A stretch of 11,913 bases of DNA, taken from the NCBI GenBank assembly GCA_021129445.1, contig JAJOLG010000040.1, positions 1 to 11,913 on the forward strand, in the 5' to 3' direction. The notes under the pieces were generated by a model. It worked only from the letters and a program-made list of their open reading frames with translations, had not been told where the DNA came from and did not search any database. Below are positions 4,024-11,481 of the stretch, in pieces. The first letter of the stretch is position 1. Every line of letters starts with the position of its first letter. The translations under genes were made by a program, and so were the position numbers. Origin of the DNA: Candidatus Altimarinota bacterium (lineage in GTDB: Bacteria; Patescibacteriota; Gracilibacteria; GCA-2401425; JAJOLG01).

Positions 4024-5136
4024 ATGCAAAAAGAGGATTACAGGATTTTATGGGCAGCGAGCGGTTTTTTAACCAAAAAAAGATATGATATTTTGAAAAA
4101 AATTTTTCAAGAAAATAAAACAAGTGATGATTTTTTGAAGTTTTTATGGGAAAAACTTTCTCCTGAAATTTTAAAAAAAATTTGAGAAAAAAGTATTTCA
4201 ATTGATAAATTTTTTGATTTTAAAAAAAATGTTTCTTTGGAAAAGCAGAAAAAATTTTTGGAAAAATATGATGCAGAAATTTTATTTTTTGAAGATGAAA
4301 AATTTCCAAAAAATTTAAAAAATATTCCTGATTGCCCAATGTTTTTGTATGTTCAGTGAGAAATTTTAGAAGATGATTTTTTGTCAATTGCAGTTGTTTG
4401 AGCGAGAAAAATTTCTGGATATTGAAAGGAAATTATTAAAAAAATAATTCCTCAATTGTCTGAAAAGTTGACAATTGTTTCCGGTTTGGCACTTTGAGTC
4501 GATTGAATGTCGCATTTGGAGGCGATGAATGCTTGATGAAGAACGATTTGAGTGATTTGAAGTGGTTTGGATATTGTTTATCCGTCGGAAAATGCACATA
4601 TTTACAAAAAAATTTTATCGGAAAAAAAATGAGCGATAATTTCAGAATTTCCATTTTGAACTCGTCCAGAAAAATATAATTTTCCACTTCGTAATCGCAT
4701 TGTTGCAGGTTTGACACTTTGAACTTTGGTGATTGAGGCGAGAGAAAAGTCTTGATCTTTGATTACCGCAAATTTGGCAATTGATTACAATCGTGAAGTT
4801 TTTGCGGTTCCTGGGTCGATTTTTTCAACTGAATCGTGATGAACAAATTCTTTGATAAAAAAGGGGTTTGCGAAGTTGATTTCCTCGTCTGATGATATTT
4901 TTGAGGAGTTGAATATGGAAAATAAATTGAAAATTAAAAAAGTACAAATTGATTTTGAAGGTGATGAAATTGAGGAGAAAATTTTTTTAGTTTTGTGAAA
5001 TGTCTGAAAAGTTGTTGATAAAATTGCAATTGAGACTTGATTATCCGTTCGTGAAGTTTCGTCAAAGTTGGTTTTAATGGAAATGAAAGGGTTTGTGATG
5101 GAAAATGAAAGTTGAAGTTTTGTGAGGTTGATTTAA
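4024..5136 (+). CDS. dprA: DNA-processing protein DprA
   Basis: A 370-residue protein. DprA binds incoming single-stranded DNA during natural transformation, protects it and loads RecA onto it. The Rossmann-like core spans about 85-290 and shows every family block: FPKNLKNIPDCPMFLYVQG, VVGARKISGYG (~125), SGLALGVDGMSH (~153-164), GVIGSGLDIVYP, FPFGTRPEKYNFPLRNRIVAGL and VIEAREKSGSLITA. Many of these glycines are TGA codons. A smaller C-terminal segment (~310-370) looks like the winged-helix DML1-type domain of longer DprA proteins (KVVDKIAIETGLSVREVSSKLVLMEMKG). The gene follows ybeY after 3 nt and ends just before a hairpin terminator. The VirB4-like ATPase gene comes next on the same strand, which fits a role in DNA uptake or exchange. 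Confidence is high. Confidence 0.95.
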
Positions 5137-8626: not shown

Positions 8627-8842
8627 TTAAGCAGCTTTTTTTGCAACAGCTTCTTGTCTTTCTCTAAATCTAGCAACTCTTCAAGAATTTGCAACAGCTT
8701 TTGTTTTTCAAGTATAAAAGTTGTGACATTTTGAACAAGATTCAACTTTTATTGATTTAGAAGTTGAAAAAACTTCAAACTTAGTTCCACATGTACAAGT
8801 TGCAGTGATTTTATTTGTTGTTGGGTGAATTCAGGTTTTCAT
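8627..8842 (-). CDS. rpmE: 50S ribosomal protein L31
   Basis: A 71-residue protein of normal L31 length. It starts MKTGIHPTTN, matching the family MK.GIHP, and the Gly is a TGA codon. It has the zinc-binding form with four cysteines (C16, C18, C36, C39 in CTCGT and CSKCH), followed by the family signature FYTGK and SGRVARFRER. L31 sits on the central protuberance of the large subunit and helps bridge the two subunits. The alanine- and lysine-rich end (EAVAKKAA) is ordinary for the family. The gene has its own terminator. Its 50-nt upstream gap separates it from the flavoprotein remnant, and no clear -10/-35 pair stands out there. Confidence 0.96.
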
Positions 8843-8892: not shown

Positions 8893-9034
8893 TTAATTTT
8901 TATTAAATCAAGTTTTATTTTTAATTTTTTTTAAATTTTCTGAAATAATTTTTGCACAAATTGCGGAAAATGATATATTATAACCACCACAAAGTCAATT
9001 TATATCTAAAATTTCTCATGCAAAAAATAGATTT
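8893..9034 (-). pseudogene. 3' remnant of an HI0933/BaiN-type flavoprotein gene
   Basis: Immediately after the stop codon of the DUF4143 ATPase gene, a different frame (+1 relative to it) reads KNLFFAGEILDINGLCGGYNISFSAICAKII and runs on to TAA at 8893. This is the C-terminal signature of HI0933/BaiN-family FAD oxidoreductases (family pattern lyFAGEvlDvdG.tGGYNlq.a..sG), where the glycines contact FAD. The segment has no start codon or upstream part of its own; the frame runs back about 16 codons into the ATPase gene before a TAA. The matching N-terminal piece of the same family lies at 10206-10406 on the same strand, just beyond the ATPase gene. I therefore read the two as ends of one former gene that lost about 280-300 central codons. 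The lack of further stops or frameshifts in the conserved part suggests the event is not old. Confidence 0.8.
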
Positions 9035-10168
9035 TTAAAAAACAAACTCAAAAAAATTTTCTTGATTTATTAATTTTATTGAAGAATTTTTGTAGGTTTC
9101 CAAAAAAATTTTTTCTGTATTTTTTTTAATTTTTCATTTTTCTCACCATTTTATTTCATATCAAAAAATTTTTCATTCTCAATCTTCAAGTAAATCAATT
9201 TCATTTCATTCATAAGTCCTCCAAAAATATAAATCTCTATAAATTTCTTCATATTTTATTTTTTTAAACCTCTCCATAACTAAAAAATTTTCCCATAAAG
9301 CTCAAACGTCATTTCTTAAATTTAACGGATTAAATTGAGAAATTATTGCATTTCTAATTCATAAATCATAAAAATATATTTTCACTTTTTTTGTAATTTC
9401 GTTTCTTAAATTCCTTGAAAATCAGTATAACCTTTTAATTATAAATGCTTTTTCTAAAATATCTAAATATTTATCAGTTGTTTTTGTGTCTAATCAAACC
9501 TTCTGAGCTAATTCGTTAACAGAAACTTCTTGTCAAAGTTGGAATGAAATTAATTTTAATAAATTAAATAAAATAATTGATTTCTTAATTTTTTCTAAAA
9601 TTAAAATATCTTTAAATAAATAACTTTCTGCAATTTCCTTTATTTTACCTTGTTTTTCTTTTTTTGATTCTGCCAGAATAATTTCTGGATAAGATCAAAA
9701 AATCAAAAAATCCTCTAAATTTTTTCTCAATTCAAATTTAGTTTTTCAGTCTTCAAGTAATTCTTTTTGAGAAATTGGAAATAAATCCAGAACCTTTTTT
9801 CTTCATGTTAAAGGCTCCTGAGTTTTTTGTCATAAATCAAATGCCGATGATCAAGTTGTAATGATTTTCAGATTTGGATTGTGATCAATAATCAACTTTA
9901 AAGCTCTTCAAATATTTTTTACAACTTGTGCCTCATCAATAATCAAAATATCAAGTCACTCAACAAATTCATTTAATCTTTTCAGATTACAACTTGATAA
10001 TAATTCCTGAATTATAAAATTTTCTCAAGTTTCAAATAAATATTTTTCTTTTGTTTTTGATAAAAAATCCTTTATCAGGCTAGTTTTTCAAACCTGTCTT
10101 GCTCAGAAGATTATCAAAACTTTTCATTTTTCTAAATATTTTTCTAAATCATAAAATCTTTTAATCAT
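9035..10168 (-). CDS. AAA family ATPase with DUF4143 domain (COG1373 type)
   Basis: A 377-residue protein, complete from end to end. It has Walker A FGARQVGKTS (residues 21-30), Walker B LDILIIDEAQ (~72-81), a sensor-like KIITTGSSAFDL (~101-112) and TGRKKVLDLFPIS. The C-terminal DUF4143 part begins near 185 with a winged-helix-like VNELAQKVGLDTKTTDKYLDILEKAFII, then YFYDLGIRNAII and ALWENFLVMER. It ends with a PD-(D/E)XK-like arrangement, GNEIDLL...YEIKWG. Proteins of this group are common, occur in variable numbers per genome, and their role is unsettled; links to defence or toxin-antitoxin functions have been suggested. The gene lies inside the remains of a flavoprotein gene and shares its orientation. 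It uses TGA for glycine, including both Walker A glycines, so it is adapted to this code. Leucine CTG appears five times here but is rare in the neighbouring genes, a weak sign of different origin. Confidence 0.88.
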
Positions 10169-10195
10169 AAAATTTTGTTAAATTTTGGGGCTTGT

Positions 10196-10225
10196 ATTCC
10201 AAAAATTATAAAAAATTTTTGGAAT
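10196..10225. repeat. perfect 12-bp inverted repeat at the edge of the inserted ATPase gene
   Basis: ATTCCAAAAATT (10196-10207) is exactly complementary to AATTTTTGGAAT (10214-10225), with a 6-nt loop. It covers the last codons and the TAA of the truncated flavoprotein 5' fragment and ends 28 nt before the ATPase start. On neither strand is it followed by a T run, so it is not a standard terminator. It could be a transcript hairpin between the two frames or a scar of the rearrangement. Confidence 0.7.
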
Positions 10226-10406
10226 GTCAAAAATTTTTAAGAAAAATTTTATTCGTCACATTCATTTTTCAATTTCATGTAATTTTTAATTTTTTTCAAA
10301 TTTGGTGATTTTCTTCAAATAAATGAATTTCAAAATTTGAATTTTTTAATAAAAGTGATGAAAAAATTCCTGCTGGACCTGCTCAAATTATGGCTATTTT
10401 TTGCAT
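10206..10406 (-). pseudogene. 5' remnant of an HI0933/BaiN-type flavoprotein gene
   Basis: This 66-codon frame begins MQKIAIIGAGPAGIFSS, a dinucleotide-binding GxGPAG motif, and continues through HLFEENHQIGKKLKITGNGKMNVTN. That closely follows the N-terminus of HI0933/BaiN flavoproteins (kiaIIGaGPAGl...lfEkn..lGkKlliTGnGrcNltN). It ends at TAA inside the inverted repeat, although the family is about 400 residues long. The FAD-binding ADP fold alone cannot make a working enzyme. The C-terminal signature of the same family lies at 8893-9034 beyond the ATPase gene. The family's usual RCN is KMN here. The start and its upstream region look intact, so the fragment may still be transcribed and the ATPase with it, since they share a strand and are 37 nt apart. 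Confidence 0.82.
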
Positions 10407-10464: not shown

Positions 10465-11481
10465 ATGAAAAACAAAAAAATTTTAATCGCAATGATGACT
10501 TTTTTATTTTCTGTGTTATTTGCGAATGCGAAAGTTGATTGAAATGCAAGTGTTCAAACGGATAATTGATTACTTGAAATTTCTTTAACTTCAAGTGAAA
10601 ATATTAATTCTTCTGCAATTGATTCTGTTGTTGCGGATGAAATTATAAATGAAAATTTGAAATCTGAATGAGTTGAGTTACAAAAAGGGCCAAGATGATT
10701 TTTTTCATCATTTTTTTGAGGATTAAAAGCAAATTTATTTTGAAATCCAGTTGATAAAATAGAGGAAAATATGAAAAAAATTCAAGATTTAAAGTTAAAG
10801 GCTGAAAAATGAGAAATTGATTGAGAAAAAGTTGCTGAAAAAATTGAAAAAATTCAGTGAAATATTGAAAAAAATCAAGAAAAAGTTGAAAAATTTTTAG
10901 AAAAAAATTCTGATAAAAAAGAAAAATTTTTGAAAAAAATTGCTGTAATTGAAGAAAAAAAATCTCAAATTTTAGAAAAAATTTCAGATAAATTACCAGA
11001 AGATAAAAAGGAAAAAATTTTAGAAAGAAAAAATAAAATTTTAGAAAAGTTAGCTCAAAAAGAAGATTTTTTAAAAATTCAAAAAGAAAGAAGAGAAAAT
11101 TTTTTAGAAAAGAAAAAAGAAATTATTGAAAAAATTAAGACAAATCCTGAATTTCAAGCTAAAATTGAAGAAAAGAAAAAAATTTTAGAAAAAGTAAGAG
11201 AGGGTAAAAAAGAATTTTCAAAAAAGATTTTAGAAGAATTTAAAAATTCTTGAATTGAAAATACTCCTGAAAATTTTAAAAAATTTAGAGAAGAGAAAAA
11301 ATGAGAGTTTAAAGAGTTTTTGAAAGAAAAAAGAGATGAGATGAAAAATGAAAAAGATGAGATAATGTGAGATTTGAAGGAGTTGAAAAAGTGAATGAAG
11401 GATAAGATGGAAAATTGAATTAAAAGTGTGATGGGACTGATGAGAAATGAAAATGTGATGAAGAATGTGAAGATAGTGTAA
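10465..11481 (+). CDS. exported, highly charged coiled-coil protein, unknown function
   Basis: A 338-residue protein. Residues 1-22 are a signal peptide (MKNKKILIAMMTFLFSVLFANA, cleavage after ANA), so it should leave the cytoplasm. Residues 23-105 are mixed, with a glycine/phenylalanine patch GPRGFFSSFFGGLKANLFG. From about 108 to 330 the sequence is almost all Lys, Glu, Ile, Leu and Asn in a heptad-like rhythm, with recurring ILEK, EKIEK and FLEK units, and should be a long alpha-helical coiled coil. The stretch NPVDKIEENMKKIQDLKLKAEKGEIDGEK faintly recalls the DUF5667 type of helical exported protein, but I would not assign it. Standard-code reading gives only a fragment of it (10930-11253). 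It has its own possible promoter and a strong terminator, so it is probably a single-gene unit. A surface fibre or periplasmic spacer role is inference. Confidence 0.8.

Follow-up and report, generated by a model that had tools for sequence, protein, structure and literature searches.

An intact PDC-S01 ATPase gene in the gap of a broken HI0933/BaiN flavoprotein gene belongs to a family that appears to spread as a bare single-gene unit

How did a complete ATPase gene come to lie in place of the middle of a flavoprotein gene, with no transposase beside it? The question is raised by a window (the whole stretch of DNA analysed) of exactly 11,913 b, which is the entire contig C22 of a small symbiont-type bacterium. 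The 673-kb genome, a MAG in 77 contigs, is 95% complete and reads TGA as Gly (table 25). The features of the window on which the analysis rests are as follows.

10465..11481, plus strand: coiled-coil protein with an N-terminal signal-like stretch (table 25 ORF); intact, divergent left neighbour
10242..10406, minus strand: codons 1-55 of an HI0933/BaiN-like FAD oxidoreductase gene, left as its 5' remnant (start of PF03486 and TIGR00275; tblastn to intact orthologues)
10169..10241, minus strand: ATPase leader, laid out as in relatives, of which the first ~10 nt possibly belong to the junction
10230-10225 and 10210-10205, minus strand: TTGACA and TATAAT boxes of the leader, read from the sequence
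10224-10214 and 10207-10197, minus strand: 11-base inverted arms of the leader, TTCCAAAAATT and AATTTTTGGAA, with TATAAT inside the inverted repeat
10190-10180, minus strand: third half-site of the leader, CCCCAAAATTT, read from the sequence
9035..10168, minus strand: AAA_14-DUF4143 ATPase of the PDC-S01 family, 377 aa (Pfam, PADLOC PDLC04789, invariant residues, structural model)
8893..9036, minus strand: 3' remnant of the same flavoprotein gene (PF03486 positions 210-234, TIGR00275 positions 366-392)
8627..8842, minus strand: rpmE, ribosomal protein L31 (PF01197, 7.9e-25); intact right neighbour
4024..5136, plus strand: DprA-like gene (ORF named by eye from the sequence), a competence and recombination function relevant to DNA uptake

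Between the coiled-coil gene, whose product matched no significant family in a Pfam search, and rpmE, the minus strand carries in order the flavoprotein N block, the ATPase gene and the flavoprotein C block. The two blocks are pieces of one gene, as originally predicted: they lie on one strand in the correct order, and rather than belonging to unrelated families both are HI0933/BaiN (TIGR00275) and match the same intact orthologues (L017, L018, L019, L021, L022 and L024, 59-84% identity). The N block matched PF03486 with an E value of 5.5e-16 and TIGR00275 over positions 1-56 of 401, and the C block matched PF03486 at 1.3e-7 and TIGR00275 over the last part of the same 401 positions. In the 3' remnant, ~39 residues match orthologue residues 363-401 (the GEILDINGLCGGYN motif) and are followed by ~8 unmatched codons and a stop. 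In tblastn comparisons, homology to L021/L019 stops at residue 55 (10242) and restarts at residue 363/364 (~9036), indicating that ~307 central codons (0.92 kb) are missing. The loss had been predicted correctly, with an earlier count of about 280-300 codons. What is retained corresponds to residues 1-55 and about 363-401 of 401; the HI0933 sequence of the 673-kb genome is limited to these two fragments, and no complete enzyme was found in it. The homologous parts of the remnants contain no stops and are well conserved, the C fragment being up to 84% identical to L019, suggesting that the break is recent. Since HI0933 matches at E ≤ 0.001 are missing from 16 of 60 related genomes, loss of the flavoprotein is tolerated. 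A scan of genome contigs for the same locus, with miaB as the query, gave top matches of 43-44% identity and no close relative. In the sole genome of the same order that was compared (G001) the HI0933 gene is intact, and rpmE, miaB and the coiled-coil gene are all absent from the stretch around it. Another DUF4143 ATPase (L222, on contig C6 of G001) stops ~10 nt ahead of the ATG of that intact gene. We confirmed that a disrupted HI0933/BaiN gene with an intact ATPase gene in its gap is the real anatomy of the locus.

The ATPase gene is the sole ORF between the fragments, and its TAA stop shares bases with the Lys codon at which the homology of the C fragment begins. The prediction that the gap holds an intact ATPase gene and no transposase was borne out: the product matched the PADLOC PDC-S01 profile PDLC04789 from one end to the other (E 2.7e-139; residues 1-376 align with profile positions 1-373/375). 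It consists of an AAA core, a winged helix and a putative C-terminal PD-(D/E)XK domain, with a Walker A motif GARQVGKT, a Walker B motif ILIIDEA and a nuclease-type EIDLL...YEIK motif. Across 33 relatives, the residues of both Walker motifs and of E-x-D...E-x-K (E323, D325, E338 and K340) show little or no variation. A sequence search of the PDB returned no match. In an AlphaFold model of the protein (pLDDT 93.9), residues 1-277 found their best structural matches in the archaeal ATPases PABY2304 (Z 16.4) and SSO1545 (Z 16.0), which share ~20% identity with it and whose match barely covers the C-terminal domain. Coverage by the fold search was largely confined to residues 1-290; for residues 288-377 the model shows helix-strand-strand-strand-helix-strand. 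PDC-S01 has been described as the fusion of an ATPase with a PD-(D/E)XK member (PMC12988326), and on this description together with the motifs we regard the C-terminal domain as a candidate nuclease. The window protein resembles PDC-S01 (PADLOC; AAA_14 plus DUF4143) likewise in being encoded by a single gene. PDC-S01 is a common phage-defence candidate, and the part of its literature covered here deals with abundance and horizontal transfer. The protein is probably a STAND/ORC-like, DNA-associated nuclease ATPase that acts in defence or is encoded by a selfish gene.

The leader places the upstream border of the unit. The N block had been drawn down to 10206, the end of its reading frame, but flavoprotein homology ends at 10242, and the final 11 codons of the fragment as first reported (10241-10206) are ATPase leader and not flavoprotein. 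The ATPases of close relatives have leaders arranged alike, and the triple half-site is found in 32 of 132 ATPase leaders versus 25 of 509 control ORFs (p 5e-10). A consensus promoter scan found 13 promoters against 13.1 expected and did not call the ATPase leader; the scanner passes over it because the spacer between TTGACA and TATAAT is 14 nt, which is unusual. From the comparison with relatives, the leader is predicted to function as a promoter. Since the ATPase has its own family-type leader upstream, the old flavoprotein promoter, which had been proposed to drive it, is not needed.

ATPase genes of this kind vary in number, as had been anticipated: the 20 genomes searched carry from 1 to 29 copies, with 3 in the source genome, 21 in its nearest relative and 29 in another genome. 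We compared 134 ATPase genes with their flanks from the source and related genomes. Among 29 pairs from different genomes with at least 66% amino acid identity, homologous flanks were found in 0 of 24 upstream and 0 of 29 downstream comparisons; the control for shared flanks is thin, comprising 6 non-ATPase pairs of which 1 is fully testable. In aligned pairs, even between families, DNA similarity usually starts 36-76 nt upstream of the ATG and ends between -15 and +38 nt from the stop. Sites without the ATPase exist in same-genus genomes of relatives, the clearest being L265_7, where the flanks meet within 1 nt in both empty genomes. It is the only near-exact empty site, because several others show intergenic differences of 20-200 nt. 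No transposase lies within the unit. These comparisons support the view that the ATPase gene spreads between genomes as a bare single-gene unit, made of leader and ORF, and the guess of a mobile process in the original prediction gains support from the unshared flanks, the empty sites and the gene-end duplications described below. In the part of the PDC-S01 literature covered here, single-gene unit borders, gene-end insertions and a mode of movement are not described. The ATPase does not appear to be typical plasmid or phage cargo, since relatives occur in 127 of 72,556 records of a plasmid collection and 10 of 50,697 records of a phage collection; a scan of IMG/VR returned no relative. Plasmids of Thermus thermophilus (L339-L347) seemed at first to offer two sites with precisely one 1302-bp unit each, both empty in HB8. 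We gave this case little weight, because HB8, HC11 and HB5018 have, in place of an empty site, an ATPase with one common internal deletion, and because both related-ATPase units end in an apparent CRISPR repeat.

The surroundings of the relatives point to a preferred type of site. With direct repeats counted when they scored at least 50 bits and lay close on both sides, 13 of 132 ATPases were flanked by a repeat versus 3 of 451 control ORFs (p 7e-7), and for most ATPases (~90%) a flanking repeat was not seen. The second ATPase of the source genome (L033, on contig C25) lies between two dnaG-like 3' ends at 101-192 and 1465-1556, copies of 92 nt that are 95% identical. The 3' ends of prmC, exoA, nadA and dxr are likewise present twice around ATPases of relatives (all host gene names were assigned by eye from the sequence), and the duplication measures about 32-92 nt or is lacking. 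From these cases the ATPase unit seems often to settle at the 3' ends of host genes. L229 was left out of the clean cases because its repeat recurs elsewhere in G106, and L208/L211 because palindromic repeats in G001 are involved. Synonymous and nonsynonymous counts in the duplicated gene ends did not separate a donor allele from a decayed copy. tRNA sites were not enriched as targets (5 of 134 ATPases versus 11 of 536). The third ATPase of the source genome (L243, contig C53, 1019-2358) begins 13 nt behind a tRNA-Ser gene, with no convincing copy of the tRNA-Ser end behind the ATPase. Further observations were made around individual relatives. Numerous copies of a ~140-nt sequence are scattered over G106, often close to ATPases; a tyrosine-recombinase-like gene adjoins the ATPase at the prmC 3' end (L306, G027:C10); and at L291 (G324:C3) the halves of an interrupted small gene, a relative of an ORF of L252, overlap by ~77 nt, with the nearby ATPase off the exact borders of the interruption.

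The split flavoprotein locus departs from this picture. It has no flanking direct repeat, the best match being 63% identical, A/T-rich and of 35 bits; long target duplication is absent here and present at dnaG in the same genome. Elsewhere the unit stands between duplicated gene ends or is a clean or near-clean insertion, and within this limited reference set the flavoprotein gene is the single clear case, among the 134 relatives, of a gene split with loss of its middle. The proposed replacement of host sequence by these genes is not supported as a general property; host-sequence loss looks special to this locus within the same reference set.

We consider it likely that a mobile PDC-S01 unit entered the flavoprotein gene with the loss of ~0.92 kb, probably by homology-facilitated illegitimate recombination (HFIR) anchored at the 3' end. 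The segment from ~10241 to 9035 would be a complete PDC-S01-type unit, composed of a short, regulated-looking leader and one ORF up to its stop. A fragment with the ATPase beside a flavoprotein 3' end, from a hypothetical donor, would have been taken up and would have paired by homology with the flavoprotein 3' end that is now the C fragment, and this homologous join would have been coupled to an illegitimate join near codon 55. About 0.92 kb of the host gene would have been lost on entry, leaving the flavoprotein dead, and the ATPase would probably be driven by its own leader. HFIR has been described as typically inserting ~1 kb and deleting ~1 kb (PMC3240628), and the sizes at the locus, ~1.2 kb in and ~0.92 kb out, fit that description, as would homology on one side; here the process is inferred from one locus. 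A comEC gene (PF03772, 2.9e-44) is present elsewhere in the source genome, and together with the DprA-like gene of the window it counts in favour of uptake and HFIR.

The main rival to HFIR-type insertion is a route in two steps, in which the unit inserted at the flavoprotein 3' end and duplicated that end while leaving the gene whole, and a later deletion removed the sequence from codon 56 to the leader edge. Such a route would account for the loss of host sequence at this locus only, and at dnaG, prmC and exoA a gene end is likewise copied behind the ATPase stop. On the other hand, the deletion must have ended just ahead of the leader, and the genome retains no trace of the upstream copy. 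We regard this route as possible, with a clearly smaller chance than entry by HFIR.

Movement could also be the work of the unit itself, its PD-(D/E)XK domain cutting the target and repair copying the unit in with variable duplications or deletions, in the manner of homing genes or restriction-modification (R-M) units. The nuclease-type residues are conserved, the unit borders fall at the leader and the stop, and duplication lengths vary from about 32 to 92 nt. Insertion of R-M systems has been described as accompanied by target duplications that are long and variable (Nobusato 2000 and Furuta 2010, cited by PMC3874152 and PMC3031569), and by these accounts they are likewise nuclease-type and lack a transposase, so that the variable duplications among PDC-S01 relatives are a point of likeness; they differ in having R and M in place of one gene, and the window locus shows deletion and not duplication. 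Against self-mobilisation, the cutting activity is predicted from motifs, and no target sequence common to the loci was noticed. We consider this route rather unlikely. That the unit came to lie in a pseudogene, the flavoprotein gene having begun to decay beforehand, is improbable: the absence of HI0933 from some related genomes would suit it, but the conserved remnants, free of stops in their homologous parts, argue for a recent break. Integrase sites typically show duplicated gene 3' ends after integration, and a site-specific, tyrosine-type recombinase acting in trans might integrate the units at gene 3' ends; an XerC-like gene does adjoin the prmC case. However, the unit contains no recombinase, a recombinase gene was seen beside that one locus only, and tRNA sites are not enriched, making this explanation more improbable still. 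Although the MAG is in 77 contigs, an assembly chimera is very improbable indeed, given ordered fragments on one strand with intact genes on either side, GC content (0.22) and Gly codons (TGA 22/23) of the ATPase gene that agree with the neighbouring genes, and clean, family-type unit borders.

Known transposable elements share parts of this arrangement. The AAA plus PD-(D/E)XK protein of the window recalls TnsC plus TnsA of Tn7-like elements, whereas the unit has neither a TnsB transposase nor TniQ. The gene yhiN is presumably equivalent to the HI0933 family. The Tn7-like element Tn6230 at yhiN (PMC11406308) would accordingly have a target of the same YhiN/HI0933 family, and it inserts behind an intact gene, whereas the window unit lies inside a broken one. 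Insertion sequences and DNA transposons differ from the unit in carrying a transposase and in making a short target duplication of fixed length, whereas duplication is absent at the flavoprotein locus and of 32-92 nt or absent in relatives.

The main interest of the locus is that a very common candidate defence gene appears to move as a bare single-gene unit. A speculative extension, to which we give little credence, is that PDC-S01 genes are minimal mobile elements: self-regulated, they would use their own ATPase-nuclease to open targets, preferably gene 3' ends, and insert leader and ORF with variable duplication or deletion, having no transposase and no terminal repeats. If this were true, one of the commonest prokaryotic 'defence' families would be a class of selfish genes. 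Given sharp unit borders, a common leader and empty sites in same-genus genomes, the idea of mobility can be tested directly. If PDC-S01 genes do spread as bare units to gene ends without a transposase, mobility may account for their abundance no less than protection does.
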